From positions 251,070 to 315,069 of the forward strand of contig NZ_JAPVBI010000003.1 in NCBI RefSeq assembly GCF_026967925.1: a stretch of 64,000 nucleotides of DNA. The letters run 5' to 3'. Of the stretch, positions 10,733 through 30,359 are shown piece by piece. Each line of letters starts with the position of its first letter. Within the stretch, counting starts at the first letter, position 1. Below the pieces are notes generated by a model. The model saw only the letters and a program-made list of their open reading frames with translations. It did not search any database and was not told where the DNA came from. The stretch comes from Modestobacter sp. VKM Ac-2985. GTDB taxonomy: Bacteria > Actinomycetota > Actinomycetes > Mycobacteriales > Geodermatophilaceae. The position numbers and the translations under genes are program-made.

Positions 10733-10735
10733 GGC

Positions 10736-16391: not shown

Positions 16392-17183
16392 GTGAGCAAG
16401 CCCGACAGTGCAGGACCGGCACCGGTCGCGACCGGGGTGGACGACGCGCTCCTGGCCGGCCTCCGGCGCTGGAACCTCGCGTTGACCGTGCTGCACGCCG
16501 CCCAGGCCGTCGCCGTCCTGCTGCTGGCCAGCAGCTTCGCCATCACCGTGACGACGTCCTTCCCGACCGGTCCGCCCGGCACGGCGGTGCCGGCGCCGGA
16601 ACCCCTGGTCGACATCGGCGTGGGGGTGGCCATCGCGGTCTTCCTCGCCCTGGCCGCGGTGGACCACCTGCTGACCGGCACCGTGCTCCGCCGGCGCTAC
16701 GAGGACGACCTGCGCGGCGGCATCAACCGGTTCCGCTGGTCGGAGTACTCGATCAGCTCGACCATCATGGTGCTGCTGATCTGCACCTACACCGGCATCA
16801 CCGGGCTCAGCGCGCTGATCGGCATCGCCGGGGCGAACGTCGCGATGATCCTGTTCGGCTGGTTGCAGGAGCGGATGAACCCGCCCGGCCGCACCCGCAC
16901 GACGATGCTGCCGTTCTGGTTCGGGTGCATCGCCGGGGCCGCGCCCTGGGTGGCGATCACCGCCAACATCGTCGGCGCCGCCCAGCTCCCGGGCTTCGTC
17001 ATCGGGATCTTCGTGTCGCTGTTCGCCTTCTTCATGAGCTTCGCGGTCAACCAGTGGCTGCAGTACCGGGAGATCGGCCCGTGGCGCAGCTACGCGTACG
17101 GCGAGAAGGCCTACCTGGTGCTGAGCCTGGTCGCCAAGAGCGTGCTCGCCTGGCAGGTCTTCGCCGGCTCGCTGGCCACCTGA
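16392..17183 (+). CDS. Heliorhodopsin
   Basis: 263 residues from GTG 16392 with AGGAGG five bases upstream. Seven membrane segments are visible. The helix C segment RWSEYSISSTIM carries the family counter-ion glutamate (E118). The last helix reads LSLVAKSVLAWQVF with the retinal lysine at K249. Histidines H35 (LTVLHAAQ) and H92 (AVDHLLTG) match the two conserved histidines inside heliorhodopsins (H23 and H80 of 48C12). The N terminus is predicted cytoplasmic, inverted relative to type 1 rhodopsins. Heliorhodopsins are not known to pump ions; signalling or enzyme-modulating roles have been proposed. No Brp/Blh gene is adjacent; retinal could come from the two Brp enzymes 8-12 kb away. A GAF-ANTAR regulator converges from the other side. 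Confidence 0.95.
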   Translation: MSKPDSAGPAPVATGVDDALLAGLRRWNLALTVLHAAQAVAVLLLASSFAITVTTSFPTGPPGTAVPAPEPLVDIGVGVAIAVFLALAAVDHLLTGTVLRRRYEDDLRGGINRFRWSEYSISSTIMVLLICTYTGITGLSALIGIAGANVAMILFGWLQERMNPPGRTRTTMLPFWFGCIAGAAPWVAITANIVGAAQLPGFVIGIFVSLFAFFMSFAVNQWLQYREIGPWRSYAYGEKAYLVLSLVAKSVLAWQVFAGSLAT

Positions 17184-17224
17184 CGCCGGCGTGTGCGGTC
17201 GGGTCCCGCATCCGCCGGGCGGAC

Positions 17225-17806
17225 TCAGCGGCGGCGCCTCGGCTGCAGGACCTCCCCGGTCCGGACGAGGTGCTCGGCGACGTCGCGCAGCTTCCGGTTG
17301 GTCGCCTGCGAGACGTGGGCCAGGTACTGGAAGGCCTGGTCCGCGGTCAGCTGCTGCCGCTCCATGAGGATGCCCTTGGCCTGGTCGATGACGGACCGGG
17401 ACCGGAGCGCCACGTCCAGGTTCTCCGCGATGTCGCGAGCGGTCTCGTGGGCGTGCATGTTGCTGATCGCGAGCGCCGCACTGCGGGTGAACCTGGCGGC
17501 GGCCGTCCGGGCGTCCTCGTCGAAGGCGCCCGCCTCGGTGGCGTAGACGTTCATCCCCCCGTGCAGCCCGTCCATCGGCAGGGGCAGCGACAAGGAGCTG
17601 AGGCTCCCTCGTTGCACTGCCCGGGCCGTGTGTCCCGGCCATCGGGTGTCGCTCCGGGCGTCGGTGATCTCGACGAGCTCGCCGCTGACAGCCGCGTGCA
17701 GGCAGGGTCCGTGGCCCCGCGCGTACTGGTCTCGTCGCTGGGGGCCAGTCCCCCGGCGTCGACACGCGCGGGGTGCCCAGCTGAGGTGCGCCGATGTCTG
17801 ATGCAC
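17225..17806 (-). CDS. GAF-ANTAR domain protein, possibly N-terminally truncated or frameshifted
   Basis: The C-terminal ANTAR domain is clear: SRSVIDQAKGILMERQQLTADQAFQYLAHVSQATNRKLRDVAEHLV. It binds RNA hairpins and acts in transcription antitermination in known members. The preceding part (QYARGHGPCLHAAVSGE through GGMNVYATEAGAFDEDART) is the second half of a GAF domain. The first half is not recognisable in the same frame; upstream residues are Arg/Pro-rich. In another frame just upstream of about 17730 the sequence reads VDAGGLAPSDET, which would join naturally to QYARGHGPC after a one-base change. So a frameshift or truncation is likely, and the start (GTG 17806 used) is a guess. The gene converges with the heliorhodopsin gene. 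Confidence 0.6.
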   Translation of the reverse strand: MHQTSAHLSWAPRACRRRGTGPQRRDQYARGHGPCLHAAVSGELVEITDARSDTRWPGHTARAVQRGSLSSLSLPLPMDGLHGGMNVYATEAGAFDEDARTAAARFTRSAALAISNMHAHETARDIAENLDVALRSRSVIDQAKGILMERQQLTADQAFQYLAHVSQATNRKLRDVAEHLVRTGEVLQPRRRR

Positions 17807-18108
17807 CCAGGCCGTCGGGACGCGCTCCCGAGACGGTCCGACGGTACCGCCGCGGGAGGTCACGTGCCGCCGCGCGATCCGCCGGCACTGCCCGGCGCCG
17901 CGACTCACCGAAGGCCGGCCGGGGAGGGGCCCGCGAGGTGAGGGCGGCCCCACCGGCAAGGCTCAACCGATGGAGCCTGACCCCGGGCCCGCTGTTCTGG
18001 AGCGTCGCTGGCTGTCCGCGACCGTACGCCTGGATCGGCCTGCCCGGGGACGTCTGGTGCGCCGAGGTCCACCGAGAGGTCCGGTCCCCCGCCGGGTGCC
18101 GGCGGTGA
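17807..18108. other. Intergenic stretch without a recognisable gene
   Basis: About 300 nt between the GAF-ANTAR gene and the LuxR-type response regulator. Frames on both strands are Arg/Pro-rich and match nothing I know; remnants of the missing GAF half may lie in the first 60 nt. No promoter or hairpin stood out. Confidence 0.4.
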
Positions 18109-18759
18109 TCAGCCGGTCATGAAGCCGCTCTCGTAGGCGGCGATGACCGCCTGCGTGCGGTCGCGCGCCCGGAGCTTGAGCAGCACGCTGCTGACGTGGG
18201 TCTTCACCGTCTCGCGGCTGAGGAACAGCTCGGTGGCGATCTCGGCGTTGGACAGCCCGCCCGCCACCAGCCGCAGCACGTCGGCCTCGCGACCGGTCAG
18301 CTCCGGCAGGGCGGCCGCCCCCCGTGCGCGGGACGGTGCGTGCGAGGCGATCAGCCGCCTGGTCAGGTCCGGGAGCACCAGTGACGTCCCCCGGGCGACG
18401 ACCCGGATGGCGTCGACGAGCTCCTCGGGGTCCGACCGCTTCAGCGCGAACCCGCTCGCCCCCGCCTGCAGCGAGCGGAACAGGTAGTCGTCGTCCTCGA
18501 ACGTGGTCAGGACCAGCACGCGGGGGCGCTGTGCGTCCCGGGCGACGAGCTCCGCGGTCGCCGCGATGCCGTCCATGTCGGGCATGCGGACGTCCATGAG
18601 GACGACGTCCGGGTCGGTGTCGGCGGCGACGGCCAGCGCCTCCCGACCGGTGCCGGCGTCGCCCACCACGATCATGTCCGGCTCGCTCTCCAGGATGACC
18701 CGCAGCCCGGACCGGACGAGCACGTCGTCGTCCACGAGCAGCAGCCGCACGGCGTTCAC
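18109..18759 (-). CDS. NarL/LiaR-family response regulator
   Basis: 216 residues. The GTG start at 18759 overlaps the kinase stop (GTGA), so translation is coupled. The receiver domain has the acidic pocket VDDD (residues 9-12), phospho-acceptor D56 in VLMDVRMP, Thr in LTTFED and Lys in ALKRSD. The C-terminal LuxR domain reads LTGREADVLRLVAGGLSNAEIATELFLSRETVKTHVSSVL. It pairs with the upstream kinase. The divergently transcribed ABC exporter directly beyond the kinase is the probable target, as in LiaRS/BceRS-like envelope-stress modules and DesKR-like systems. Confidence 0.92.
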   Translation of the reverse strand: MNAVRLLLVDDDVLVRSGLRVILESEPDMIVVGDAGTGREALAVAADTDPDVVLMDVRMPDMDGIAATAELVARDAQRPRVLVLTTFEDDDYLFRSLQAGASGFALKRSDPEELVDAIRVVARGTSLVLPDLTRRLIASHAPSRARGAAALPELTGREADVLRLVAGGLSNAEIATELFLSRETVKTHVSSVLLKLRARDRTQAVIAAYESGFMTG

Positions 18760-20171
18760 CCGGCGCCCGACAGCGGCAGGGTGACGCACAGCTCGAACCC
18801 GCCGGAGGGCGTGTGCTCGGCGCTGAGCGTCCCGCCGGCAGCGACCGCCCGCTCCCGGAGGCCCGCCAGCCCGCGTCCGCCGCCGGGCCCCGGGCGGCCG
18901 TCGAGCTGGACGACCCCCTCGTTGCACACCCGGACGACGAGGGCGCCCTCGCTGCGGACGACCTGGGCGACCGTCAACGGCGTGCCCGCGTGCCGCAGCA
19001 CGTTCGTCGTCCCCTCCTGGACCACCCGGTAGGCCAGCTCCTGGAGCTCGGCCGGCACGTCGTCGACGTCGCCGTCGACCACGAGGGCGACGGGGAGGCC
19101 GCCGTCGCGGAGACCGGCGAGCAGGTCCTCGAGGTCGTCGAGCGACGGCGCGGCGAACGGGACCGGGTCCCGGCCCCCGTCCTCCGCCCGGAGCACGGTG
19201 AGCACCCGGTCGAGCTCCGCGAGCGCGGCCCGGGTGTTGGTCTCGATGTGCCCGAGCGCCTGCCGCGCGAAGTCCGGCTGCAGCGGCCGGTCGCCTGCCG
19301 GGGTCAGCGTCCGGCGGGCGGCGGTGGCCTGCAGCAGGCTGGCGGTCAGCGCGTGGCCGATGGTGTCGTGCAGGTCGCGGGCCAGCTTGGTCCGGTCGGC
19401 CAGCCGTCGGGTGCGCTGCTGCAGCGCGGCGATCCGCTGCTCGGGCGCGGTGCCGAGCAGCCGTGGCGCCACGGAGGCCGACAGCCGCACCAGCAGGTCG
19501 ACCACGGCCAGGGTGAGCACGACGTCGGCGACCATCAGCGCGAGCAGCGGGAGTGCGTTGAGCGGGTTCCACTCGGGGTCCCAGCCGAGCGCGACGAAGA
19601 GGGCGGCACCGAAGAGGAGGGCGGCGGACGTGGCGACGCCGAAGAGCAGGCGTGCCCCCAGCCAGCCCAGGGCACGCCAGGTGTCGGGCGCGAGCACCAG
19701 CCGGCGGAGCTTGCGGACGACGCCACGCTGGTCGCGGACCCGCTCACCCTCGGGGATGTCGACCCCGAGCAGGCGGCGGGCCAGTCGGCGCTCCAGGCCG
19801 GCCAGCCCGCGGGTCACCGCGAGCACCAGCAGGACGAGCAGGATCCCGACGCCGTAGACGATGGCCACCACCGAACCGATGAGCCCCAGGTACAGCAACA
19901 GGTACAGCACACCCAGGGGCACGCTCGCCAGCGCGTAGAGGGCCCGGCCGCGCCACCCCGGGCGGGCGGCGAGCAGCAGCTCCCGCAGTCGGGTGGCGAT
20001 CCCGGTCGCCGAGCGCGGGGAGGGCGTCGGGGGCACGGCTCGATCCTGGCCCACCGCCGCGCCCGGCGACTCCCCCTCCGGCGCCCCGCTCCCCTCCCCC
20101 ACGCGGGGGAACCCGGTCGGCACCGCGGGGTGATCCGCCCGGGCCGGCCGCACCGACACGCTCCGTGTCAT
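18756..20171 (-). CDS. Sensor histidine kinase (HisKA_3 type)
   Basis: 471 residues from ATG 20171. A long cytoplasmic N-terminal stretch is followed by membrane segments in two groups (about residues 76-122 and 168-230), then the dimerisation helix with ARDLHDTIGHAL (phospho-acceptor H268) and the HATPase domain (YRVVQEGTTNVLRHAG as the N box, GGGRGLAGLRERA as the G box). This is the NarL-class kinase pattern with a membrane-embedded sensor and no extracellular domain. Such intramembrane kinases usually sense envelope stress through a partner transporter. The ABC transporter genes start only 54 nt away in the opposite direction. Confidence 0.92.
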   Translation of the reverse strand: MTRSVSVRPARADHPAVPTGFPRVGEGSGAPEGESPGAAVGQDRAVPPTPSPRSATGIATRLRELLLAARPGWRGRALYALASVPLGVLYLLLYLGLIGSVVAIVYGVGILLVLLVLAVTRGLAGLERRLARRLLGVDIPEGERVRDQRGVVRKLRRLVLAPDTWRALGWLGARLLFGVATSAALLFGAALFVALGWDPEWNPLNALPLLALMVADVVLTLAVVDLLVRLSASVAPRLLGTAPEQRIAALQQRTRRLADRTKLARDLHDTIGHALTASLLQATAARRTLTPAGDRPLQPDFARQALGHIETNTRAALAELDRVLTVLRAEDGGRDPVPFAAPSLDDLEDLLAGLRDGGLPVALVVDGDVDDVPAELQELAYRVVQEGTTNVLRHAGTPLTVAQVVRSEGALVVRVCNEGVVQLDGRPGPGGGRGLAGLRERAVAAGGTLSAEHTPSGGFELCVTLPLSGAG

Positions 20172-20225
20172 GACTGCACCCCTCCCGCGGCGGCGACGCC
20201 GGCACACCCCCGACGGGCCGCGACC

Positions 20226-21191
20226 ATGATCCAGGTGCGTGGCCTCACCAAGGAGTACGGCACCAGGTCCAGGCTGCGTGGGGCCGGCGTGGTCCGGGCC
20301 GTCGACGACCTGACCTTCGACGTCCAGCCGGGCAAGGTGACCGGCTTCCTCGGCCCGAACGGCGCGGGCAAGTCGACGACGATGCGGATGGTCCTCGGCC
20401 TCGACCGGCCCACCGCCGGCTCCGCCCTGGTGACCGGCCGCCGGTTCGCCGAACTGGCCGAGCCGCTCCGGGTGGCCGGTGCGCTGCTCGACGCCGCCGC
20501 GGTGCACCCCGGCCGCAACGGCCGCGACCACCTGCGGGTCGCCGCCCGCACGCACGGCATCCCGCTGCGCCGGGTGGACGACGTCATCGACCAGGTGGGG
20601 CTCGGCCCGGCGGCGCGGCGGCGGGTGCGCGGCTACTCCCTGGGCATGCGCCAGCGGCTCGGCATCGCCACCGCGCTGATCGGGGACCCCGCCGTCCTGC
20701 TGTTCGACGAGCCGATGAACGGCCTGGACCTCGACGGCGTCCGGTGGGTCCGCCGGCTGGTGCGCGAGCTCGCCGACGAGGGCCGGACCGTCCTGCTGTC
20801 CAGCCACCTGATGAGCGAGATGGAGCAGACGGCCGACCACCTGGTGATCATCGGCCGCGGCCGGCTGATCGCCGACGCCTCGATGCAGGAGGTGATGCGC
20901 CGGGAGGACGCGCAGCGGCAGGTCCGGGTCCGGACCCCCGCCCCCGGCGAGCTCGCCGGCGCGCTGAAGCGCCGTCGGCTGCAGGTGCACCCCACCGACG
21001 ACGGCGACCTGCTGGTCGAGGGCGCGACGGCCGAGACCGTCGGCGACGTCGCGCTCGCACTCGGCGTGGCGGTGCACCGGCTGACCGAGGAGCACTCCTC
21101 GCTCGAGCAGGTCTACCTCGACCTCACCGGTGACACCGTCCAGTACCGGGTCGCCCGTGCACCCGAGCCGGCCGAGCTGGTGCGGCGATGA
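20226..21191 (+). CDS. ABC transporter ATP-binding protein (exporter type)
   Basis: 321 residues from ATG 20226. Walker A GPNGAGKST (43-51), signature segment YSLGMRQR in place of LSGGQ, Walker B AVLLFDEPMNGLD, and the switch His in LLSSHLM. The C-terminal 90 residues are an extra domain typical of the DrrA/antibiotic-resistance subfamily of ABC-2 exporters. Its stop overlaps the start of the permease gene (ATGA), so the two are coupled. Likely role: drug, peptide or lipid export under control of the divergent two-component system. Confidence 0.92.
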   Translation: MIQVRGLTKEYGTRSRLRGAGVVRAVDDLTFDVQPGKVTGFLGPNGAGKSTTMRMVLGLDRPTAGSALVTGRRFAELAEPLRVAGALLDAAAVHPGRNGRDHLRVAARTHGIPLRRVDDVIDQVGLGPAARRRVRGYSLGMRQRLGIATALIGDPAVLLFDEPMNGLDLDGVRWVRRLVRELADEGRTVLLSSHLMSEMEQTADHLVIIGRGRLIADASMQEVMRREDAQRQVRVRTPAPGELAGALKRRRLQVHPTDDGDLLVEGATAETVGDVALALGVAVHRLTEEHSSLEQVYLDLTGDTVQYRVARAPEPAELVRR

Positions 21192-21991
21192 CCGCGGCGC
21201 AGGCCACCGACCGGACGACGGCGGCGGGCCCGGAGCCGGGGACGGCGACCCTCCTCGCCCGCACCGCCGCCGCCGAGTGGCTGCGGCTGCGCACGGTGCG
21301 GTCGACGTGGTGGTGCCTGCTCGCCGCGGCGGTGACCGTCGTGGGCATCGGGGCGACCGCGGCCTTCGACGAGGCGACCGGACCGGACACCCCGTCGGCG
21401 GCGCTGCCGGCCACCCTCGCCGGTGAGTTCGGGGTGCTGCTCGGCCAGTTCGGGCTGCTGGTGCTCGCCCTGGTCGCCGTCACGCAGGAGCACGCCAGCG
21501 GTTCGATCGGCCCGACCCTGCAGTGGACGCCGCGCCGCGGGGTGCTGCTGGCCGCCCGGGTCACCGTGCCGGTCGTGGTGGCCACGGTGGCCGGGGTGCT
21601 CCTCGCGCTGGTCACCGACGTCGCCGCCTGGCTCATCGCACCGCAGCTGACCCTCTCGGCCACCGAGCTGGCCGGCAGCCTGGGTCGGGTCGCGGCGGTG
21701 CTGGCCGCCGGCAGCGTGCTGGCCGTCGGGGTCGGCCTGCTGCTGCGCAGCACTGCGGGCGCGCTGGCCACGGTCTTCCTGCTCCAGCTGGTCCTGCCCG
21801 CCCTGCTGCCCGGGTTCGGCGTCGAGTGGATGGCCGACCTCGGTGAGCTGCTGCCGGGTACGGGGGCCGTCTGGACCCTGCTGGGCGAGCCGGACATGAC
21901 GGCAGCCCAGGCGGCGGCGCTGCTGGTCGGCTGGTCCGCCACCGCCCTGGCGGCGGGCGGCTGGTCGCTGCTGCGCCGGGACGCCTCGTAG
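21188..21991 (+). CDS. ABC transporter permease (ABC-2 type)
   Basis: 267 residues from ATG 21188. After a soluble N-terminal stretch ending in AAAEWLRLRTVRSTWW (a common start of actinobacterial ABC-2 permeases) there are about six membrane helices, with the loop GQFGLLVLALVAVTQEHASGSI and TLQWTPRRG typical of this family. It partners the upstream ATPase. Substrate unknown; identification of the ATPase/permease pair is firm, the transport direction (export) follows from the subfamily. Confidence 0.85.
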   Translation: MTAAQATDRTTAAGPEPGTATLLARTAAAEWLRLRTVRSTWWCLLAAAVTVVGIGATAAFDEATGPDTPSAALPATLAGEFGVLLGQFGLLVLALVAVTQEHASGSIGPTLQWTPRRGVLLAARVTVPVVVATVAGVLLALVTDVAAWLIAPQLTLSATELAGSLGRVAAVLAAGSVLAVGVGLLLRSTAGALATVFLLQLVLPALLPGFGVEWMADLGELLPGTGAVWTLLGEPDMTAAQAAALLVGWSATALAAGGWSLLRRDAS

Positions 21992-22002
21992 GTCGGGTCG
22001 GG

Positions 22003-22164
22003 TCAGGCGGGTGGGCCGTCGGCGTCGTCCGGGTCTTCCTCGGGCTCGAACGTGCCGCCGGCCTCCTCCGACAGACCCAGCTCCACGCCGGGCGCGTCCT
22101 CCTCCGGTGTCGGGCCGGCATCCGGCTGGCCGGCGTCGGGGCCCGGTGCATCGGGGTTGGTCAC
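22003..22164 (-). CDS. Small acidic hypothetical protein (53 aa)
   Basis: A GTG start at 22164 is preceded by AGGAGGAGGACC. The protein is Asp/Glu/Pro/Gly-rich with no Lys or Arg (ends EPEEDPDDADGPPA), probably disordered. It lies just downstream of the gamma-glutamyltranspeptidase gene on the same strand (40 nt gap). Function unknown. The strong ribosome-binding site is the main support. Confidence 0.4.
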   Translation of the reverse strand: MTNPDAPGPDAGQPDAGPTPEEDAPGVELGLSEEAGGTFEPEEDPDDADGPPA

Positions 22165-22204
22165 GGCGGTCCTCCTCCTGTCGTCCCGGCTGTCCGGCCG
22201 GCCG

Positions 22205-24064
22205 TCATCGGTCCCCGCGTCGGGGGGCCAGGCCGGGGTCGTCCGCGCCTGGTCGCTCCGGGCGGCCGAGGACGTCGTGCACCACGCCCGCGCTGCCCCC
22301 GCCACGCCGTTCCACCTCCGCGGCGGCCAGGATCAGGCCGCCCGGCAGGTACTCGATGCCGGTGGCCGCACCGAGCTCCTCCACGACGGTGAACTCGTGC
22401 CCGAGCGCCTCGAGCTCGGGCCCGTACGCCTCGATGAAGGCCGGTTCCGCGCTCACCGTGGTGGTGTTCCGCTGGCTCGCCCGGGGGGCGGCGATCGCCT
22501 CGGCGAGGTCCATGTCCCGGTCGATGCGGTTCACCAGGGTCTGCAGCACCGTGGTGATGATCGTGCTGCCGCCCGGCGAGCCGAGGCCGAGCACCGGTTC
22601 GCCGTCCTGCAGCACGATCGTCGGCGCCATGCTGCTGCGCGGCCGCTTGCCCGGGGCCGGCAGGTTCGGCTCGGGCTGGGTGGGATCGGCCGCCGCGAAG
22701 GTGAAGTCGGTGAGCTCGTTGTTGAGGATGAACCCGCGGCCGGGCACCGTGATCCCGCTGCCGCCGGTCTGCTCGATGGTCAGCGTGTAGCTGGCGATGT
22801 TCCCCTCGGCGTCGCCGACCGTGAGGTGCGTGGTGGACGGGCCCTCGGGGCCCTCCGCCACCGTGGGCTCCCCCTCCACCGGGCACGGGCCGTACTCGCC
22901 GTCCGGGTCCCCGGCGGTCGTCGGCTTGGCCAGGGCCACCGCCGGGTCGATCGCGCACGCCCGCTCACCGGCGAAGCCGTCGGAGAGCAGCTCGGCGAGC
23001 GGCACCTGGCTGTACGCCGGGTCGCCGACGTAGGCGTTGCGGTCGGCGAAGGCCAGCGCGCTGGCCTCGAGGTAGTGGTGCAGCACCGGCACGGCGGGCA
23101 GTGCGCCGAGCGGGTACCCCTCCAGGATGTTCAGCGCCTCCGCGACGGTCGAGCCGCCGCTGGACGGCGGGGCCATGCCGTAGACCTCGAGTCCCCGGTA
23201 GTCGATCCGGGTGGGCTCGCGCAGCGGGGCGTCGTACAGCGACAGGTCGACCGCCTCGAGCAGACCCGGGCGGACCTCGGCCGCGCCTGCCGCCTCGGGC
23301 GGGTCCTGGACGGTCTGCACGACCTCTTCGGCCAGCTCGCCGACGTAGAACGGGTCCACGCCCTCGTCGGCGAGGAGGCGGTAGGTCTCCGCCAGGTCGG
23401 GGTTGGTGAAGGTGGACCCCACCTCGGGCAGGGCGCCTCCCGGCAGGAACAGCTCGGCGGTCGGTTCGAAGCGGCGGAACTTCTCCTCGTTCTCCGCGGT
23501 CTGCTGCTGGAACGTCTCGTCGACGACGAAGCCCTTCTCCGCCAGCTGGATCGCGCCCTGCAGCGTGTCCGACAGCGACCAGGTGCCGAACTCCTCCAGC
23601 GCCGTCGCCCAGGTGCGCGGCGTCCCCGGCGTGCCCACCGACAGCCCGCTCTGCACCGCCTCGGCGAACGGGAGGGGTTCACCGGCCTCGTCGAGGAAGG
23701 CGTCGGCGCCCATCGCGAGCGGCGCGGTCTCCCGGCCGTCGATCGTGGTGACCGCCCCCGTGTCGGCGTCGTAGTAGAGGAAGAACCCGCCACCGCCGAC
23801 CCCGGCCGAGTAGGGCTCGGTCACGCCCAGCGCGGCCGCCGTGGCGACGGCGGCGTCCGCGGCGTTGCCGCCGGCGGCCAGCACCTCCAGGCCCACCCGG
23901 GTGGCGTCGGGGTCGACGGTGGCGACCGCGCCGCCGGTACCGACCGCCAGTGCACGTTTCTCCGTCACGGGCTCGGGCGGAGCGGCGCTCGCCGGCCCCC
24001 CGGCCACGAGGGCGCCGGCGGTCAGCGCGGTCAGGGCGACCAGGGTGGTACGTGGACGCGACAT
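22205..24064 (-). CDS. ggt: Gamma-glutamyltranspeptidase
   Basis: 619 residues from ATG 24064, preceded by GAGGAGTCTCC. Signal peptide: MSRPRTT then a hydrophobic stretch ending near ASA (residue 27). The proenzyme's autocleavage site and nucleophile lie in GPSTTHLTVGD (T411), preceded by a large subunit with GGNAADAAVATAAALGV. The small subunit has MAPTIV and SPGGSTIITTVLQ near the substrate site. The enzyme hydrolyses or transfers gamma-glutamyl groups outside the cell. Mycothiol-using actinomycetes lack glutathione as main thiol, so peptides or scavenged glutathione are the probable substrates (inference). It runs opposite to the next gene with a 194 nt shared upstream region. Confidence 0.93.
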   Translation of the reverse strand: MSRPRTTLVALTALTAGALVAGGPASAAPPEPVTEKRALAVGTGGAVATVDPDATRVGLEVLAAGGNAADAAVATAAALGVTEPYSAGVGGGGFFLYYDADTGAVTTIDGRETAPLAMGADAFLDEAGEPLPFAEAVQSGLSVGTPGTPRTWATALEEFGTWSLSDTLQGAIQLAEKGFVVDETFQQQTAENEEKFRRFEPTAELFLPGGALPEVGSTFTNPDLAETYRLLADEGVDPFYVGELAEEVVQTVQDPPEAAGAAEVRPGLLEAVDLSLYDAPLREPTRIDYRGLEVYGMAPPSSGGSTVAEALNILEGYPLGALPAVPVLHHYLEASALAFADRNAYVGDPAYSQVPLAELLSDGFAGERACAIDPAVALAKPTTAGDPDGEYGPCPVEGEPTVAEGPEGPSTTHLTVGDAEGNIASYTLTIEQTGGSGITVPGRGFILNNELTDFTFAAADPTQPEPNLPAPGKRPRSSMAPTIVLQDGEPVLGLGSPGGSTIITTVLQTLVNRIDRDMDLAEAIAAPRASQRNTTTVSAEPAFIEAYGPELEALGHEFTVVEELGAATGIEYLPGGLILAAAEVERRGGGSAGVVHDVLGRPERPGADDPGLAPRRGDR

Positions 24065-24258
24065 GGAGACTCCTCGGGCGTCATCGATGCGCAGGGACAC
24101 ATCGGACACCTCCGGAGCTCCTCGCGCCACCCCATCGGCGAGCACCGGCCTCGGCTCCCGCGGGGCGCGCCGACGAGTGCTGCACTGCGGTGAGCGATGA
24201 GTTCCGCGCAGCCACCGAGTCGAGGAGCTGACAGCGACCGATGCGACAGGAGGCCCTC

Positions 24259-24903
24259 GTGCCCGTCACCACCCGGCAGGCCCTGTGGGCGGCCGCCCAC
24301 GCCGAACGCGCCGCCCTGGCCGGCGACCTGGCCGAGCTGGACGAGGCGCAGTGGTCCGCGCCGTCACTGTGCGGGCGGTGGAGCGTCGAGGAGGTCGTGG
24401 CCCATCTGAGCGCAGCGGCCAGCACCGGGCGGGCGCGCTGGCTGATGAGCATGATCGGCGCGCGGTTCGACGCCGACGTGCACAACGACCGCCGCCTGGC
24501 CGAGCACCGCGGCGGCACGCCCGCCGAGACGCTGCAGCGCTTTCGCACGGTCGGTGACAGCACCACCGCCCCCAGCGGGCACACCGCCGCCTGGCTCGGC
24601 GAGGTCGTGGTCCACGCCCAGGACGTTCGCCGCCCGCTCGGTCTGCCCGGCCAGCCCCCGGTGCCCGTGGTCACCGAGGTCGCCCGCTTCTACGCCGCCC
24701 GGGACTTCGCCGTGAACAGCCGCACCGCCGCCGACGGCCTGCGGCTGCAGGCCGACGACGGGCCCTTCGCCGCGGGCGCGGGTCCCCTGGTCACCGGCAC
24801 GACCCTGGCTCTGACGATGGCCATGGCCGGACGCGCGGCGTTCTGCGAGGAGCTGACCGGCCCCGGCGTGCCCGTGCTGCGCGACCGCTGCGCGCACTCC
24901 TGA
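24259..24903 (+). CDS. Maleylpyruvate isomerase family (DinB-like, mycothiol-dependent) protein
   Basis: 214 residues from GTG 24259, chosen because AGGAGG sits five bases upstream; an ATG at 24241 lacks a ribosome-binding site. The N-terminal four-helix DinB-like domain shows the family motif LCGRWSVEEVVAHLSAAAS, with a conserved His that binds metal, and AWLGEVVVHAQDVRRPLG with the second and third ligands. The C-terminal half (GLRLQADDGPFAAGAGPLVTG) is the MDMPI-type extension. Members are metal-dependent thiol transferases or isomerases using mycothiol; the specific substrate is unknown. It converges with the first Brp/Blh gene. Confidence 0.82.
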   Translation: MPVTTRQALWAAAHAERAALAGDLAELDEAQWSAPSLCGRWSVEEVVAHLSAAASTGRARWLMSMIGARFDADVHNDRRLAEHRGGTPAETLQRFRTVGDSTTAPSGHTAAWLGEVVVHAQDVRRPLGLPGQPPVPVVTEVARFYAARDFAVNSRTAADGLRLQADDGPFAAGAGPLVTGTTLALTMAMAGRAAFCEELTGPGVPVLRDRCAHS

Positions 24904-24942
24904 GCCACCCGGGTGGCCGGACACGGGCGGCCGGCTGGGCCC

Positions 24943-25923
24943 TCATCCCCCGGCCGCCGCCCGCTGGCCGGCGTGTGGCCGGCCCGCCCGCCGGTCGAGC
25001 AGTGCGACCACGGCCATGTGCGGCACCGTGAGGCCCAGCAGGACGGCCAGGGCACCGGCGGTCCAGTCGGGCCGCTGGGCGCTGAGCACCAGCAACGCGA
25101 TGCCGGTGAGGGCCACCCCGGTGGGAGCCGCGGCCGCGGCGGCGTAGCGGCGCAGCGGCGCCCCGAGCCGGCCGGCGGCGAGGTCGTCGGCGTTGCGCGG
25201 GTCGAGCACGAGCAGGCGGCCGATGTGCCGCACCGCGTGCCAGCCACCGAAGTAGACCCCGAACGCGGCAGCCGGCGGCGCGAGCGCGAAGAGCGCGGCC
25301 AGCACGCCGGCCTCGGCCGCCCACCCGGGCCGGCCCCGCGCCAGCGCGCCGAGCACCGTGCCGAGCAACGCCAGGCCGACGACCGCGAGCGCGACCTGCC
25401 GGACGCCAGGGGTCAGCAGGGCCGGCAGCTCCGGGGCCAGCGCCGCCAGCACCCGGTCCGCCTCGTCGGGCCACCGCGCGAGCGGGACCGCGACGGGGAG
25501 CCCGCCCAGGCCCACCACCGGTGCGACGTCCCGCAGGGCGGGCCGCCAGGGGGTTCCCGACCGCTCGGCCTCGAACGCCACCTCGCCCATGCCGAAGTGC
25601 ACCGCGGAGACGGCGAACAGCAGCAGCAGGCTCACCACCGGCGCCACGAGGAGGGCGCCCAGCGCCACCAGGGCCGCGGCGGCATAGCCGGTGAGCACCC
25701 CGGGCCGCAGCATCCGCCCCGGGCGGCCGGCCACCCAGTCCGGGACCAGGTGGTCGACCGCCCCGTGCGGCAACCCGACCAGCACCCCGGCGGCCAGGAT
25801 CCCCAGCGCCCACGCCGAGAGCTGCTCGGGCAGCAGCAGGGCCGCCGCGACGGCCGCGCCGACGACCCCGACCGACAGCCGGGTCGTCAGCGCGGTCACC
25901 CGCCGCGGCGCCTCTGCCGTCAC
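24943..25923 (-). CDS. blh: Brp/Blh-family beta-carotene 15,15'-dioxygenase (retinal formation), copy 1
   Basis: About 326 residues from GTG 25923, which lies 17 nt after the stop of the NDQ rhodopsin gene; an in-frame ATG at 25980 inside that gene is an alternative. The protein is hydrophobic throughout (eight or more helices) and has all family histidine motifs: LPHGAVDHLVPDWV, SAVHFGMGEV, GGWHAVRHIGR and LTVPHMAVVALLD. These histidines hold the iron in the Brp/Blh fold. Function: central cleavage of beta-carotene to two retinals in the membrane. It is cotranscribed with the sodium-type rhodopsin and presumably supplies its chromophore. No carotenoid synthesis gene is in the window. Confidence 0.92.
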   Translation of the reverse strand: MTAEAPRRVTALTTRLSVGVVGAAVAAALLLPEQLSAWALGILAAGVLVGLPHGAVDHLVPDWVAGRPGRMLRPGVLTGYAAAALVALGALLVAPVVSLLLLFAVSAVHFGMGEVAFEAERSGTPWRPALRDVAPVVGLGGLPVAVPLARWPDEADRVLAALAPELPALLTPGVRQVALAVVGLALLGTVLGALARGRPGWAAEAGVLAALFALAPPAAAFGVYFGGWHAVRHIGRLLVLDPRNADDLAAGRLGAPLRRYAAAAAAPTGVALTGIALLVLSAQRPDWTAGALAVLLGLTVPHMAVVALLDRRAGRPHAGQRAAAGG

Positions 25924-25939
25924 GACGCCGTCCGGCGGA

Positions 25940-26779
25940 TCAGGCGGCCCGGCCGGGAGCAGCCACCTCGGTGATGCCACCGCGGGGCATGGTGACGTCG
26001 GAGGCGACGGCCTCGTCGTGGCCCTCGTGCTTGCTCACCTTGCGGGCGATGACCGCCAGCAGGATCCCGTAGACCACCTTCGACGTGACGTCGGCGACGG
26101 TGTAGGTGATCTGCCGGGCGACCACGCCGTCGGCGGAGTCCCAGATCGCCGGCATCAGGTAGGCACCGGGGTAGAGCATCCAGGAGACCAGCAGCAGCCA
26201 CCACACGGCCTTGACCAGCGGGCGCACCTCAGCCGGCAGCCGGCCGACGTTGCCGTACACGGTGCGGTACACCAGCGCCAGGATGACCAGGAAGAAGACC
26301 GTGCTGATCGACCCCCAGACCCAGAAGGGGGCGCTGCGCTCGACCTCGTAGAACTGGCCGACGTAGCCGGTGTAGACCATCCCCAGCCCGGCGACGGTGA
26401 ACATGATCCAGCCGCGACGGAAGGCGGCGCCGGTCACCCCGAGCACGATCAGCATCTGCAGGAGCAGCACCGGGACGTCGATCGACCAGTTCATGTACCG
26501 GTAGCCGTTGGAGAACAACGCGTCCGTCTGGCTGAACGCCTCGCCGTCCCAGCGGAAGGCGCTCTCCCACTTCTGGGAGATGACCAGCAGCTCCAGGAAC
26601 GCCGACACCATCACGACCGCGGACAGGGTCGAGGAGAGCTGGTACCTCGGCAGGGAGTTCTTGCTGGTGAGCACGAAGTACACCAGCCCGGCCGCCATCG
26701 CGGCGTAGCCGACGGTGAAGACGTGGGACACGATCGTGTACTGGAAGAAGTCGTAGGTGAAGGTGTTCTCGACGTTCAC
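25940..26779 (-). CDS. NDQ-type (sodium-pumping class) microbial rhodopsin
   Basis: 279 residues from GTG 26779, with AGGAG five bases upstream. Seven helices. In helix C the sequence RYMNWSIDVPVLLLQM places N97, D101 and Q108 at the three positions that define sodium pumps (N112/D116/Q123 of KR2), with R94 as the usual arginine. Helix G is YTVADVTSKVVYG, with counter-ion D230 and retinal lysine K234. The N terminus (ENTFTYDFFQYTIVSH, LTSKN) also follows KR2 rather than proteorhodopsin. Expected role: light-driven outward Na+ (or H+ without Na+) transport. Helix E has Gly at the BR W138 position (G156), which could open a carotenoid antenna site. A brp/blh gene follows directly. Reports of NDQ pumps that I know of are mainly from Bacteroidota and Proteobacteria. 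Confidence 0.95.
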   Translation of the reverse strand: MNVENTFTYDFFQYTIVSHVFTVGYAAMAAGLVYFVLTSKNSLPRYQLSSTLSAVVMVSAFLELLVISQKWESAFRWDGEAFSQTDALFSNGYRYMNWSIDVPVLLLQMLIVLGVTGAAFRRGWIMFTVAGLGMVYTGYVGQFYEVERSAPFWVWGSISTVFFLVILALVYRTVYGNVGRLPAEVRPLVKAVWWLLLVSWMLYPGAYLMPAIWDSADGVVARQITYTVADVTSKVVYGILLAVIARKVSKHEGHDEAVASDVTMPRGGITEVAAPGRAA

Positions 26780-26811
26780 GCGGTCTCCTGTCGGATTGCG
26801 GCCTCGTGCCT

Positions 26812-26833
26812 CTGCTCGATCACGGACGAGCAG
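26812..26833 (-). promoter_or_regulatory. Inverted repeat in the 5' leader of the NDQ rhodopsin gene
   Basis: CTGCTCG and CGAGCAG form a 7-bp dyad with an 8-nt spacer, 32-54 nt upstream of the GTG start. It could be an RNA hairpin in the leader or a protein operator. Nothing else supports a specific regulator. Confidence 0.3.
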
Positions 26834-26923
26834 TTCTTCCCCCACCGGCAGCGCGGTGGATGCAGTGGTCGGCGCCCGAGCTGACCCGGACGCCGGGCCG
26901 ACCGGCCGGACGCTCGAGAACGG

Positions 26924-27037
26924 TCACCACCCAGGGGGGTCCTCACCGGCCAGTCGCATAGGCAGGTGGTCCAGGTCGCCGTCGCGGTCGGGCAGTTCGG
27001 CGGCCAGCGCCTCGTCGAACCGCTCGGCGAGGTCCAT
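26924..27037 (-). CDS. Possible small protein (37 aa) upstream of the NDQ rhodopsin
   Basis: ATG 27037 is preceded by AGAAGGAACC. The product (MDLAERFDEALAAELPD, then GDLDHLPMRLAGEDPPGW) is acidic and helical at its start and has no membrane segment. It ends 144 nt before the rhodopsin GTG on the same strand. It may be a leader peptide, an independent small gene, or chance. The rest of the interval from 26780 to 27307 holds only the hairpin, this frame and a DosR-like dyad. Confidence 0.35.
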   Translation of the reverse strand: MDLAERFDEALAAELPDRDGDLDHLPMRLAGEDPPGW

Positions 27038-27242
27038 CCCGGTTCCTTCTCGTCCCCTCGGGCGTGCTCACCACACTCGTCGGCGTCGACCGCCCCCGGG
27101 AGCGTGCCCGCACCCACCGGGGCGGCGGACCGAGGCCGCCGCATCTGGACCGGGCACCGCACGGGCTCGGTCTGCCGGCCGTTGCCGGGTCAGCCGTCGT
27201 CGCTGGGCACCCGGCACGGCCAGGGAACCGCTGGAGGCCGCC

Positions 27243-27256
27243 GGGACGTTGGTCCG
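27243..27256. promoter_or_regulatory. DosR/DevR-like dyad
   Basis: GGGACGTTGGTCCG, 52 nt before the start of the membrane-anchored hypothetical gene at 27308. It differs at one base from the perfect GGGAC-N4-GTCCC dyad at 48399. Assignment to a DosR-type regulator is inference from the known actinobacterial consensus. Confidence 0.4.
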
Positions 27257-27307
27257 GCAGCCGATCGTCGTCCGGACGACGGGCCCGTCGTCCCTTCGAG
27301 GAGCACC

Positions 27308-28033
27308 ATGACCACCCCGCTGCCGACCAGCCCGGCCGGCGCACTCGACGTGCGGGCCGACGACGAGCTGTCGTGGCTGCTCTCGCTCGACAGCACGGTG
27401 CTCGCCGTCCTCGGTGGCGTGTTCGTGACCTTCCTGCTGATGGCCCTGCTCGCCGGGTGGCTCGTCGTCCGACGGGTGCGGCGCAGCCCCCTGGTGGCCC
27501 GGAGCCGGGAACTCGCCTCGCGCAGCCGCGAGCTCGGCGTGCAGGGAGCCACCGCGGTCGCTGCCCGCCGCCTGCCGCCGGGCCGGCGGCGCACGGCCGC
27601 GGAGCTCCAGCTCGAGGTCGCCCGCGCCCGCGACCGGCTTCGCCGGCAGGTGGCCGCCGCCCGGGCTGCCGGTGCCCACCTCGGCGACGTGCCGGACCTG
27701 CTCCCGTCCCTGGCGGCCGAGGGCAACCGGCTCGAGCAGCGCCTGCGGCAGCGGGCCATGGACCCCGAGCCGACCGGCCGGGACGACCCGGAACCGGAGG
27801 CGCGGGCGTACCTGGAGACGGTCGCCGACGTCTGCGACGCGGTGCTCCAGGCGGAGCGGGCCGTCGCGCCGACCGGCCGGACGACGGCGGACGTCGCCGA
27901 GGCGGTCACCGCGCTGCGGGCGCACACCGCCGCCTACCAGGAGCTCACCGCCCCGCCGGCGATGCCCCCGCTGCCCCCTGCGGCCGCTGCGCCGCTGCCC
28001 ACCAGCGCCGACGTCCGTCCCCTAGGCCACTGA
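27308..28033 (+). CDS. Hypothetical single-pass membrane protein with coiled-coil region
   Basis: 241 residues from ATG 27308 with GAGGAGC upstream. One membrane helix (about residues 32-56, VLAVLGGVFVTFLLMALLAGW) follows a short outside N terminus. The cytoplasmic part is Arg/Ala/Leu-rich and likely helical or coiled coil (AAELQLEVARARDRLRRQVAAARAAG, residues 97-122), ending in a Pro-rich tail. I recognise no family. It lies between the two rhodopsin-brp pairs on the opposite strand and is preceded by a DosR-like dyad. Any link to phototrophy is unproven. Confidence 0.7.
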   Translation: MTTPLPTSPAGALDVRADDELSWLLSLDSTVLAVLGGVFVTFLLMALLAGWLVVRRVRRSPLVARSRELASRSRELGVQGATAVAARRLPPGRRRTAAELQLEVARARDRLRRQVAAARAAGAHLGDVPDLLPSLAAEGNRLEQRLRQRAMDPEPTGRDDPEPEARAYLETVADVCDAVLQAERAVAPTGRTTADVAEAVTALRAHTAAYQELTAPPAMPPLPPAAAAPLPTSADVRPLGH

Positions 28034-28345
28034 GGCGACGCGCAGCTGCCGGAGGGGGTGCTCGACCATCGCACCGGCACCGGTCAGGTCCCGACGGGGA
28101 CGGGGCCGGGGCAGTCAGCGCCGCGCGCACGGAGGCCGGGGAACGTGCGCCCACGACCGGGGCCAGGCCCACCGTCCGGTGGCTCGCGGCCGCGTTCCGT
28201 GACGCCGCCAGCGCCTGCGGGGCCATGGCGACCACGACGGTGGAGAGCCCGGCGGGGTTCCGTGCCGCGTACGTGCCAGGAGATCAGGCCGGGCCGGCAC
28301 GACGCCGACGTCCCCGGCAGTCCCGCAGTCCCGCGGTCCCGCCGG
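28034..28345. other. Intergenic stretch between convergent genes, no gene seen
   Basis: About 310 nt between the membrane-protein gene and the second brp/blh gene. Frames here are Pro/Arg-rich with no family resemblance. Near the end, the heptamer GTCCCGC-like unit is repeated three times in tandem (28319-28342). No clear terminator hairpin was found. Confidence 0.4.
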
Positions 28346-29341
28346 TCAGGGGCGGGTGCGGCCCTGCTCGGCGGCCCAGCGGTCCAGCGCCTGGACGGTC
28401 AGGACGTGCGGGAAGGTGAGCGCGACCAGGACGGCGAGCGCCGCGCTCACCGCGACCGCCGAGGCGTCCCCACCGGCGAGGACGACGACGGCCGCCAGGG
28501 TGACCAGGGTGGGCAGCGCCGCATGGGCGGCGAACCGCCGCACCGCCGACCAGGTCCCCTGCGTCGGGGACGTCGTGCGCAGCAGCGAGACCAGCCGCTC
28601 GGTGTGCCGCAGGGCGTGCCAGCCCGCGAACCACACCCCGAAGGCCACCAGCGGGGGCACCACGACGAACAGCGCGGCGACCCCGGCCAGCTCGGCCGCC
28701 TCGCGTCGCCGACCGGCCCCCACCTGGAGCCGGAGGGCGACCACCAGCACGACCAGGCAGCCCAGCCCCAGGGCGGCGCGGCCGGCGAGCGGCAGCGGCT
28801 CCTGCCAGCCAGGTGCGATGCGCCCCAGGACGTCGGCCGACGGCCCCGGCCACAGCACCAGCGGCACCGCTACCACCGCCAGGCCGTGCGCCGCCGTCGG
28901 CCACCAGTCCTGCCCCGGTCCGGGCACCTGCCGGCCGGCGTCCTCCGCGGAGACCACGACCTCGGCCCGGCCGAAGTGGACGGCCGAGGCGAGCAGGAAG
29001 ACCACGACGGTGGCCGTCGGCGCCAGCAGCAGCGCGCCCACCGCCAGCCCGGCCACCGCCGTGTAGCCGGCGAGCACCCGGGCCAGCGCCGCGGCTGCTG
29101 GCCGCCGTCCGCTGGTCCAGAACGGCACCATGTGGTCGACCGCGCCGTGCGGGACGCCCAGCACGATGCCGGCCAGCGCGACGGCGGGCGCGACCTGGGC
29201 GAGCGCCTCGGGGACGAGCAGCTGGGCGCCGAGAGCACCGACGGCCAGGGCGGGACCGACCGCCCGGACCGGCCGGCGGGGCCCCCGGGGTGGTGCGCCG
29301 GCCCGGGAGGGGGGCCGGCGCACCACCGAGGAGCCCGGCAT
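28346..29341 (-). CDS. blh: Brp/Blh-family beta-carotene 15,15'-dioxygenase (retinal formation), copy 2
   Basis: 331 residues. The ATG at 29341 overlaps the stop of the upstream rhodopsin gene by one base (TGATG), so translation is coupled. Membrane protein with the same ordered histidine motifs as copy 1: VPHGAVDHMVPFW, SAVHFGRAEV, AGWHALRHTERL and LTFPHVLTVQALD. Reaction: oxygen-dependent central cleavage of beta-carotene to retinal. The two Brp proteins differ widely outside the motifs, so they are old paralogues or independent acquisitions, not a recent duplication. This copy belongs to the proton-pump rhodopsin operon and probably to the CarH regulon. Confidence 0.93.
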   Translation of the reverse strand: MPGSSVVRRPPSRAGAPPRGPRRPVRAVGPALAVGALGAQLLVPEALAQVAPAVALAGIVLGVPHGAVDHMVPFWTSGRRPAAAALARVLAGYTAVAGLAVGALLLAPTATVVVFLLASAVHFGRAEVVVSAEDAGRQVPGPGQDWWPTAAHGLAVVAVPLVLWPGPSADVLGRIAPGWQEPLPLAGRAALGLGCLVVLVVALRLQVGAGRRREAAELAGVAALFVVVPPLVAFGVWFAGWHALRHTERLVSLLRTTSPTQGTWSAVRRFAAHAALPTLVTLAAVVVLAGGDASAVAVSAALAVLVALTFPHVLTVQALDRWAAEQGRTRP

Positions 29342-30252
29342 CAGCTGGTCCGGCTGGCCCGTGCGCCGTTCCCGGTCGGGGCCCCCGCCGTGGTCAGGAC
29401 CTCGTCCCCGGCGTGCGCCCCGTCCCCTGCTGCGGTCGCGGGTACCGAGTGGTCGTCGTCGTAGGACGGATCGGCCAGCCGGCTCTTCACCCGGGCCACC
29501 TTGTAGATGGCCAGGCCGTAGGCGGCCTTGGCGAAGATGTCGGCGAGGGAGTAGCCGACCTGCTTGAGCACGAAGCCACCCTCACCGCCGAAGAAGTCCC
29601 CGCCCAGGATCGGGAACAGGTAGGCGATCGGGTAGACGCCCCAGAGCCCGACGAGGGCGAGCCGCAGCATCTTGATGGTGTGCACCACCTCCGGTGGCTG
29701 CCGGTCCAGCGACCGGGACAGCTCCACGAAGAGCACGTACAGCAGGTAGAGGAACGGGATCGTCGACAGCGTGCCCCACAGCAGCCGGGGGCCGACCTCG
29801 TTGGCCAGCTCGCCCGGGTAGCCCAGCGCGATCATCAGCGCCGATGCCGGGATCAGCTTGACGAGCAGCTTCTTCGCCGCCGCCCGCCCGAGGGCCATCA
29901 CCGCGACCGTCTCGAAGAGGAGCAGCGGGACGGTGAGCAACCAGTCGACGTAGCGGTAGCCCTCGTTGAACTCGACGTTGGACAGCTGGTGCGGGGCGTC
30001 GATGGTCGCCCCGGCCGGGTAGCTCTCCTGGAAGTTGTTGAAGATCCGGAAGTAGTGGTACGCGGCGATCCCACAGACGATCGCGGAGACCACCACCGCA
30101 TTGCGGTACTGGCGGATGACCTGCCGCTGGGAGACCAGCAGGTACAGCGAGGTGAACAGCAGACAGGCGATGGCGAGCGAGAACAGGTTGTAGACCGTGG
30201 AGTAGTTCGTCGCGGAGAGCGACGGGATGTTGACGGCAGCTGCCTGGACCAT
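29341..30252 (-). CDS. DTE-type proton-pumping rhodopsin (xanthorhodopsin/actinorhodopsin-like)
   Basis: 303 residues from ATG 30252, with GAAGGGG upstream. Seven helices and a C-terminal tail of about 45 residues. Helix B has H66 (AYHYFRI), the partner of the counter-ion in proteorhodopsins. Helix C is RYVDWLLTVPLLLFE: D103 proton acceptor, T107, E114 proton donor. L111 at the proteorhodopsin-105 position suggests green absorption. Helix G is YSLADIFAKAAYG with D238 and retinal lysine K242. In helix E, LLWGTLSTIPF has G160 where bacteriorhodopsin has W138; this Gly creates the carotenoid antenna pocket in xanthorhodopsin. Expected role: light-driven outward H+ pumping. It is coupled to brp/blh copy 2 and lies downstream of a CarH-type light sensor. 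Confidence 0.95.
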   Translation of the reverse strand: MVQAAAVNIPSLSATNYSTVYNLFSLAIACLLFTSLYLLVSQRQVIRQYRNAVVVSAIVCGIAAYHYFRIFNNFQESYPAGATIDAPHQLSNVEFNEGYRYVDWLLTVPLLLFETVAVMALGRAAAKKLLVKLIPASALMIALGYPGELANEVGPRLLWGTLSTIPFLYLLYVLFVELSRSLDRQPPEVVHTIKMLRLALVGLWGVYPIAYLFPILGGDFFGGEGGFVLKQVGYSLADIFAKAAYGLAIYKVARVKSRLADPSYDDDHSVPATAAGDGAHAGDEVLTTAGAPTGNGARASRTS

Positions 30253-30318: not shown

Positions 30319-30347
30319 GGTCTACGCCTTTCCGTTGTCCTGGTCGA
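30319..30347 (-). promoter_or_regulatory. Putative promoter of the proton-pump rhodopsin gene
   Basis: On the minus strand TCGACC (30342-30347) and TAGACC (30319-30324) are separated by 17 bp, matching actinobacterial housekeeping-type -35/-10 spacing. It lies between the CarH-like stop and the rhodopsin start, so rhodopsin-brp can be transcribed separately from the regulator genes. Confidence 0.4.
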
Positions 30348-30359
30348 GTTGCACAGGTT

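Follow-up and report, generated by a model that had tools for sequence, protein, structure and literature searches.

Does the presence of three rhodopsin genes within 14 kb of one actinobacterial chromosome reflect a single phototrophy system, or do separate light-dependent units lie side by side? The question is raised by a 64-kb stretch (contig positions 251070-315069, hereafter the window, meaning the whole stretch analysed) of the genome of Modestobacter sp. VKM Ac-2985, a strain from a salt crust in the Karakum Desert. Its genome was published as 4.72 Mb in 9 scaffolds (PMC10190537) and here comprises 4,716,754 bp in 9 contigs. The window encodes a heliorhodopsin (HeR), a rhodopsin of the NDQ type and a rhodopsin of the DTE type, all apparently full length. 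Across the whole genome there are exactly two PF01036 matches and one HeR match, and all of them lie within the window. Overall, the locus is probably best explained as three separate light-protein units, comprising an island that holds the NDQ and HeR genes and a cassette that holds the DTE gene. The features that make up these units are as follows.

16437..17183, + strand: heliorhodopsin (PF18761, E=1.4e-99; NF038020); a longer start at 16392 is possible
24943..25899, - strand: Blh-type beta-carotene 15,15'-dioxygenase of the NDQ unit (PF15461, 4.2e-43; TIGR03753); start uncertain, 25980 possible
25940..26779, - strand: NDQ rhodopsin, predicted light-driven Na+ pump (motif, PDB matches, tree)
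28346..29341, - strand: Blh-type dioxygenase of the DTE unit, its start overlapping the DTE stop (PF15461, 1e-43; TIGR03753)
29341..30252, - strand: DTE rhodopsin, predicted outward H+ pump of the xanthorhodopsin/Gloeobacter type (PF01036; best PDB match 6nwd; tree)
30346..30358, - strand: conserved motif ACYTGYRCAACTT (1 mismatch) upstream of DTE, a candidate operator or promoter element
30360..31277, - strand: MerR/B12-binding regulator, CarH-like (PF13411, PF02607; PDB 3whp, 5c8d)

Identity of the rhodopsins and their companion genes

An earlier note on this DNA had told the three types apart by motifs in the translations (E118/K249 for HeR, N97/D101/Q108 for NDQ and D103/T107/E114 for DTE). 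These identifications were right, and all of the residues align as claimed. In the NDQ protein, N97/D101/Q108 align with N112/D116/Q123 of the sodium pump KR2 and K234 aligns with KR2 K255, and the equivalents of KR2 S70, R109, Q157, R243 and D251 are kept (S59, R94, Q142, R222 and D230). Functional roles have been assigned to the S70, R109, Q157 and R243 positions. The protein thus shares with KR2-type Na+ pumps the NDQ motif, the Asp and Lys of helix G and these four equivalents; it differs in its actinobacterial host and in the Blh gene that follows it, and is 49% identical to the NDQ protein of Robiginitalea (Bacteroidota). Its best-matching solved chains are 8jh0, 8qle and KR2 itself (4xtl). 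Only 4xtl is called a sodium pump in the PDB, where 8qle is entered as 'Bacteriorhodopsin-like protein' and 8jh0 as 'Xanthorhodopsin'; we take these two to be the Na+ pumps ErNaR and IaNaR, respectively.

Placement of the NDQ protein outside the sodium-pump clade was the outcome that the earlier note had named as refuting its view. In a tree of 108 rows, built by a quick search with Shimodaira-Hasegawa-like approximate likelihood ratio (SH-aLRT) supports only and no bootstrap, the protein instead falls inside the KR2 clade, among 59 rows that include 4xtl, 8jh0 and, on a long branch, 8qle (SH-aLRT 99). Within this clade it groups with NDQ proteins of Geodermatophilaceae, Pseudokineococcus and Micromonosporaceae (support 99), and its nearest named relatives are from Modestobacter and Blastococcus. 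The NDQ protein is therefore predicted to be a light-driven Na+ pump, and as a prediction from sequence this is well supported. A chloride pump was considered and rejected, because the motif is NDQ rather than NTQ and because of the clade placement. Two points weigh against Na+ pumping of the KR2 kind. The equivalents of KR2 D102, N61 and G263 are A87, S50 and A242, which means that the Na+ site between KR2 protomers is not preserved and that the affinity for Na+ could differ; additionally, proteins of the KR2 type can move H+ in the absence of Na+. The D102 site is, on the other hand, a specialisation rather than a family-defining feature, and 8qle carries Glu at that position. The NDQ protein also has the fenestration glycine (G156), and a Na+ pump that binds the carotenoid salinixanthin has been reported (PMC10026069).

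The DTE protein resembles the pumps of Gloeobacter (GR) and xanthorhodopsin (XR). Its D103, T107, E114, H66, G160 and K242 align with GR D121, T125, E132, H87, G178 and K257, its best structure match is GR (6nwd), and it groups in the tree with GR, XR (3ddl) and Kin4B8 (support 96). A glycine of the GR G178 type lets XR and GR accept a carotenoid antenna. Given the shared DTE motif, His66 and fenestration Gly160, the window protein is predicted to be an outward H+ pump, possibly with such an antenna. In contrast to GR and xanthorhodopsin pumps, it sits behind a CarH-like gene and before a Blh gene in a conserved three-gene cassette. Other type-1 rhodopsins are also present in the Geodermatophilaceae, for which 112 genomes were searched (with completeness of 90% or more and contamination of 5% or less in 96): another DTE clade of the family, distant from that of the window protein, accounts for 13 rows of the tree, and 40 of the 112 genomes have a PF01036 gene outside both the NDQ type and the window's DTE type, although only 13 of these 40 were read as sequences and the remainder were classed by profile score alone.

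The heliorhodopsin scores 278.5 bits with NF038020, relative to a cut-off of 100. When numbered from the start at 16392, its counterion Glu is E118 and its retinal Lys is K249; the gene caller favours the start at 16437 (GTG, 248 aa). Both residues align with those of the PDB heliorhodopsin 9ljj, with a score close to that for 48C12 (6su3). Like the actinobacterial HeRs 48C12, AbHeR and OcHeR, the protein matches the HeR family models and has the Glu and Lys in place. HeRs are mostly regarded as sensors, and the window protein may likewise be a non-pumping photosensor. Weighing against such a role, a viral HeR is reported to move protons (PMC9448325), and the HeR gene of M. caceresii is split in two frames (G086; L049 3741-4486), where it is either dispensable or mis-sequenced. 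A similar case, with HeR in two adjacent pieces, is found in a further genome (G158:C1:405338-406050) and could reflect decay or sequencing error.

The claim of the earlier note that each pump has its own retinal-forming enzyme was borne out, as a Blh gene follows each pump gene and the two score 156.2 and 151.4 bits with TIGR03753 (cut-off 95.25). A lycopene cyclase is encoded in all nine Modestobacter genomes examined; it is of the PF05834 type (E < 1e-48) in six, including the window genome (G000, G086, G090, G100, G101 and G103), and of the PF18916 type in the other three (G092, G093 and G102). With two Blh genes and a lycopene cyclase in the genome, retinal could therefore be made. RPE65-type carotenoid oxygenases, an alternative retinal source, had no match in the seven genomes searched. 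Within the family, Blh was matched in 31 of the 52 genomes that bear a type-1 rhodopsin and in 2 of the 60 that lack one; none of the five genomes with HeR alone has it. Genomes in which HeR occurs without a type-1 rhodopsin and without a Blh match are G001, G006 (a fragment), G014, G059 and G074. A strict rule of one Blh per pump was nevertheless rejected, since two Modestobacter genomes break it: G102 (VKM Ac-2984) lacks the NDQ-linked Blh and has one elsewhere, and G092 (99% complete; L052 9551-11233) has NDQ, HeR and a lycopene cyclase with no Blh or RPE65 match.

The regulator upstream of the DTE gene has Thermus CarH (3whp, 5c8d) among its PDB matches, and W151-x9-E161-H162 and H198 are kept in the alignment with that protein. 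The W-x9-E-H motif and the lower-ligand His mark B12-dependent light regulators of the CarH/LitR type. By analogy, the protein may repress the DTE and Blh genes in the dark and allow their expression in the light. Against this stands its score of 74.2 bits with the CarH equivalog NF052513, for which the cut-off is 400, and it is therefore named CarH-like only.

Comparisons with relatives gave ratios of nonsynonymous to synonymous substitution (dN/dS) of 0.10-0.26 for NDQ (8 comparisons), 0.10-0.38 for HeR (7) and 0.24-0.26 for DTE (only 2). These low values indicate purifying selection on the three rhodopsin genes, which are thus not chance open reading frames.

The NDQ-HeR island and the DTE cassette

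The possibility that the three rhodopsin genes form one operon was rejected on the basis of their strands and of the genes between them. HeR lies 8.8 kb from NDQ on the opposite strand, and one of the genes between the two is mycothiol-isomerase-like. Other features of the island and its surroundings are as follows.

17225..17959, - strand (gene-caller start 17593): GAF-ANTAR protein, convergent with HeR (PF03861, 1.1e-21; PF13185)
18109..18759, - strand: LuxR-type response regulator (PF00072, PF00196), also in the island of five other Modestobacter genomes
18756..20153, - strand: sensor histidine kinase (PF13796, PF07730)
20226..21191, + strand: ATP-binding cassette (ABC) exporter ATPase (PF00005; best NCBIfam match drrA, under its cut-off)
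21188..21991, + strand: presumed ABC exporter membrane subunit, from its overlap with the ATPase gene; without a family match
22205..24064, - strand: gamma-glutamyltransferase (PF01019, 3.5e-149; TIGR00066, over cut-off)
27308..28033, + strand: conserved gene of no recognised family between the two pump units, less than 5 kb from NDQ in five island relatives
31326..31793, - strand: MarR-family regulator at the cassette flank (PF12802)

Profile scans gave no Pfam or NCBIfam match for the product of 27308-28033, and Rfam and transfer RNA scans of the window gave none. Other HeR genes have also been found near two-component genes (PMC8612252) or a multidrug ABC transporter (PMC11109279). In the window, genes of both kinds are near HeR but outside any operon with it; in contrast to other HeRs, that of the window has no close same-strand neighbour and is convergent with the next gene, which encodes the GAF-ANTAR protein.

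Of the 23 genomes of the genus, which include five of only 67-80% completeness, seven have both NDQ and HeR and the others have neither; in the seven, the two genes are always on one contig and convergent. Five relatives have the same island, with NDQ and HeR 4.9 to 12.5 kb apart and with two-component and ABC genes between them: the sister strain VKM Ac-2982 (G101), VKM Ac-2977 (G103), M. caceresii KNN 45-2b (G086), G090 and G102. In G092, NDQ and HeR are the only genes of the window's island within the 20 kb examined, and they are convergent and 51 bp apart. Six Modestobacter genomes thus have the island, which their common ancestor probably already carried. Immediately upstream of NDQ, VKM Ac-2977 and M. 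caceresii (L048 14546-18208; L126 1914-5538) have a further set of genes for a response regulator, a 419-aa protein and an ABC ATPase, which resembles the set between HeR and NDQ (44% identity for the response regulator, 35% for the ATPase).

The DTE gene has a different distribution and is missing at the window's site in all five island relatives. Its cassette is a compact unit, in that the order of CarH-like gene, DTE and Blh is kept in all nine family genomes with the window's DTE type, and the gap before DTE is 102-128 bp in each. The surroundings of the cassette, in contrast, vary by genome group (flanks are alike in G052 and G062, and partly alike in G079 and G084). In VKM Ac-2977, the genes that flank the cassette in the window adjoin each other. 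In the sister strain VKM Ac-2982, a remnant is present: 126 bp from the 3' end of Blh (96%) are joined to a 438-bp stretch (87%) that corresponds to the start of the MerR gene, roughly 250 bp of it, together with the sequence preceding that gene, and part of this stretch is repeated about 1.5 kb on. The simplest reading of this remnant is that the cassette stood in the sister strain and was then mostly deleted; transfer of a cassette fragment would be a less simple one.

A motif, ACYTGYRCAACT, upstream of DTE is exact in seven of the nine cassettes and altered in the other two, and is absent elsewhere in the 218 loci compared; the window's copy is the site at 30346-30358. The motif is not rare within the window, which detracts from its candidate role as an operator: the 13-base form has three matches at two or fewer mismatches, while shuffled versions of the window have a mean of 1.1 matches and 10 of 100 shuffles reach three. 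Because such chance matches occur, the specificity of the motif rests on the comparison between genomes. Inspection by eye revealed no clear shared motif upstream of NDQ.

These arrangements are probably best explained by three light-protein units, each of which is likely to have its own transcript. NDQ and its Blh would provide a light-driven outward Na+ pump with a retinal-making enzyme, whereas the CarH-like protein, as an adenosylcobalamin light regulator, would together with DTE and the second Blh constitute a cassette for outward H+ pumping that light induces. HeR, encoded on the opposite strand, would act as a non-pumping photosensor. The DTE cassette, which is found at several chromosomal sites in relatives, would have come to adjoin the NDQ unit and later have been mostly deleted in the sister strain. 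Light could then lead to the export of both Na+ and H+, as would suit a salt-crust habitat.

NDQ rhodopsins and heliorhodopsins beyond the genus

The company of NDQ and HeR is not limited to Modestobacter. In an order-level sample of 397 genomes, which includes the genus and in which NDQ was confirmed by motif and split or fragmentary HeRs (G086, G158, G006) were counted, HeR is present in 12 of 16 NDQ genomes but in only 14 of 381 others (Fisher p = 6e-13) and in 5 of 46 genomes with another type-1 rhodopsin, as found by BLAST with the NDQ protein (Fisher p = 3e-6); both statistics ignore phylogeny. Three genomes, all with HeR, were dropped from the NDQ counts on their motifs: G673 (Ser-Thr-Gln), G584 (DTE) and G243 (Asn-Thr-Gln). 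In a phylum-level sample of 396 genomes, with the NDQ search cut at E 1e-30, the counts are 10 of 11 versus 99 of 385 (p = 2e-5, again ignoring phylogeny), and some families of this sample frequently have HeR in any case. Similarly, HeR is present in 23 of the 40 genomes behind 55 named NDQ loci, namely in 22 of 32 actinobacterial genomes (one as a fragment), in the single Chloroflexota genome and in none of seven cyanobacterial, planctomycete and Bacteroidota genomes; 15 loci were left out of this count (4 from Modestobacter that were already known and 11 from Bacteroidota, Balneolota and Rhodothermota). The order, phylum and named-locus samples overlap.

Physical linkage is less common. Among the 55 named NDQ loci, many with short flanks, 4 have HeR inside the examined flank: three Modestobacter loci and that of Verrucosispora sioxanthis CWR15. 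In the latter (L075 10001-11703), HeR follows NDQ in the same direction after a gap of 107 bp, with Blh on the other side of NDQ, and the two rhodopsin genes may form an operon. The Verrucosispora sioxanthis HeR is in the same clade as the HeRs of a group of genomes (f16) that are Micromonospora by their tree placement beside named ones; of the five of these with both genes in the order sample, four carry them on separate contigs and the fifth has 2 Mb between them. As far as the accessible portion of PMC11109279 extends, NDQ pumps are not among its ten classes of same-operon HeR neighbours.

One explanation for these patterns is that NDQ and HeR are functional partners, with HeR sensing light and adjusting either the Na+ pump or how the cell responds when light drives Na+ out, selection holding the pair together and the DTE cassette being incidental. 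Such a partnership would fit the shared contig and convergent orientation in all seven NDQ-bearing genomes of the genus, the short spacings in G092 and Verrucosispora sioxanthis, and the excess of HeR among NDQ genomes in both the order and the phylum sample. However, those counts take no account of phylogeny, and seven linked genomes of one genus contribute 7 of the 12 in the order sample. Additionally, the genes are unlinked in the five Micromonospora genomes, NDQ occurs without HeR in two Blastococcus genomes, the HeR gene of M. caceresii is split, and HeR is common alongside other type-1 rhodopsins in Luna-1 actinobacteria, where 57% of genomes are reported to have both (PMC12422013). A partnership of this kind is considered unlikely. 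The broader proposal, that actinobacterial Na+-pumping rhodopsins and HeRs are a recurring functional pair, with HeR as light sensor or direct modulator, and were brought together at least two times (in the Modestobacter island and in Verrucosispora sioxanthis), is likewise put forward only tentatively; if it is true, HeR gains a testable partner in energy metabolism.

A different possibility is that the proximity of the three genes is an accident of insertion sites combined with a common need for retinal, and that they have no joint function beyond the chromophore pool. The unrelated genes between HeR and NDQ are consistent with this, as are the location of the DTE cassette elsewhere in eight relatives, the mere remnant in the sister strain and the missing NDQ-linked Blh of G102, where another Blh exists. 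Similarly, NDQ, the window's DTE type and HeR are found together only in the window genome among the 112 of the family (G102, G052 and G062 have three rhodopsin genes in other combinations). Retinal alone is nevertheless a poor explanation for the second NDQ-HeR adjacency, in the Micromonosporaceae, and for the full co-occurrence in the genus, since HeR is rare with the two DTE types of the family (3 of 9 and 3 of 40). An accident of this kind is a serious possibility, though one that falls short of an even chance. The earlier note had instead viewed the locus as one integrated phototrophy region for dual Na+/H+ light energy use. Two pumps of different predicted ions and two Blh genes do lie within 5.3 kb, and related strains are from salt crusts (PMC10190537); yet the cassettes and their distributions are separate, a single family genome has the whole set, and the opposite-strand gene at 27308-28033 lies between the pump units. 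Integration on this scale is improbable. The interpretation given in the earlier note thus holds for the rhodopsin types, the NDQ clade and the Blh gene after each pump, but not for a single dedicated phototrophy region, as HeR is separated from NDQ by two-component, ABC, gamma-glutamyltransferase and mycothiol-isomerase-like genes, and DTE belongs to a cassette that has its own CarH-like regulator and occupies other sites in relatives. Three units, in an island with NDQ and HeR that is adjoined by a DTE cassette, remain the probable explanation.

Relation to described systems and additional observations

NDQ and DTE types are reportedly listed for the Geodermatophilaceae by Tarlachkov in 2020. 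Rhodopsins of cultivated members of the family have already been published (Tarlachkov et al. 2020, Bioinformatics 36:1668; cited in PMC10190537), and PMC10190537 itself, which also deals with this family and probably with an identical set of strains, reports rhodopsin genes without types or loci. XR- and NaR-type rhodopsins are also mentioned for Antarctic desert communities (PMC9728251). Several pumps per genome are known from Nonlabens marinus, Dokdonia eikasta and Gillisia limnaea (PMC10308929), and HeR occurs with actinorhodopsin, in up to three genes, in Luna-1 actinobacteria (PMC12422013). In those genomes H+ pumps are joined by pumps for Na+ or Cl-, or HeR accompanies actinorhodopsin, whereas the window has NDQ, DTE and HeR within 14 kb. 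The earlier note knew of no described locus with all three types, and a limited literature search, with most subscription journals outside it, likewise found no description of such a locus or of an NDQ-HeR pairing. Therefore, although the protein families are known, the arrangement of the three and the association of NDQ with HeR are unusual and, within the limits of that search, apparently undescribed.

The recurrent company of NDQ and HeR is the most interesting lead. The linkages in Modestobacter and Verrucosispora sioxanthis offer a concrete pair on which the function of HeR can be tested. If both pumps work, a soil actinobacterium could charge Na+ and H+ gradients separately by light, which matters for life in salt crusts. 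Similarly, the cassette of CarH-like gene, DTE and Blh, with its common upstream motif, is a test case for B12-dependent light control of a rhodopsin pump.

Two additional observations were made. Two of the genomes dropped from the NDQ counts are actinobacterial and have rhodopsins with Ser-Thr-Gln (L184, G673) and Asn-Thr-Gln (L144, G243) motifs. A Ser-Thr-Gln rhodopsin is not known to have been described before; Asn-Thr-Gln is described as a chloride-pump motif (PMC9728251). Within the window, a complete tripartite tricarboxylate transporter (TctA, TctB and TctC) is encoded at 9227-12270, about 4 kb from HeR. This transporter is presumably of the Na+- or H+-coupled type.

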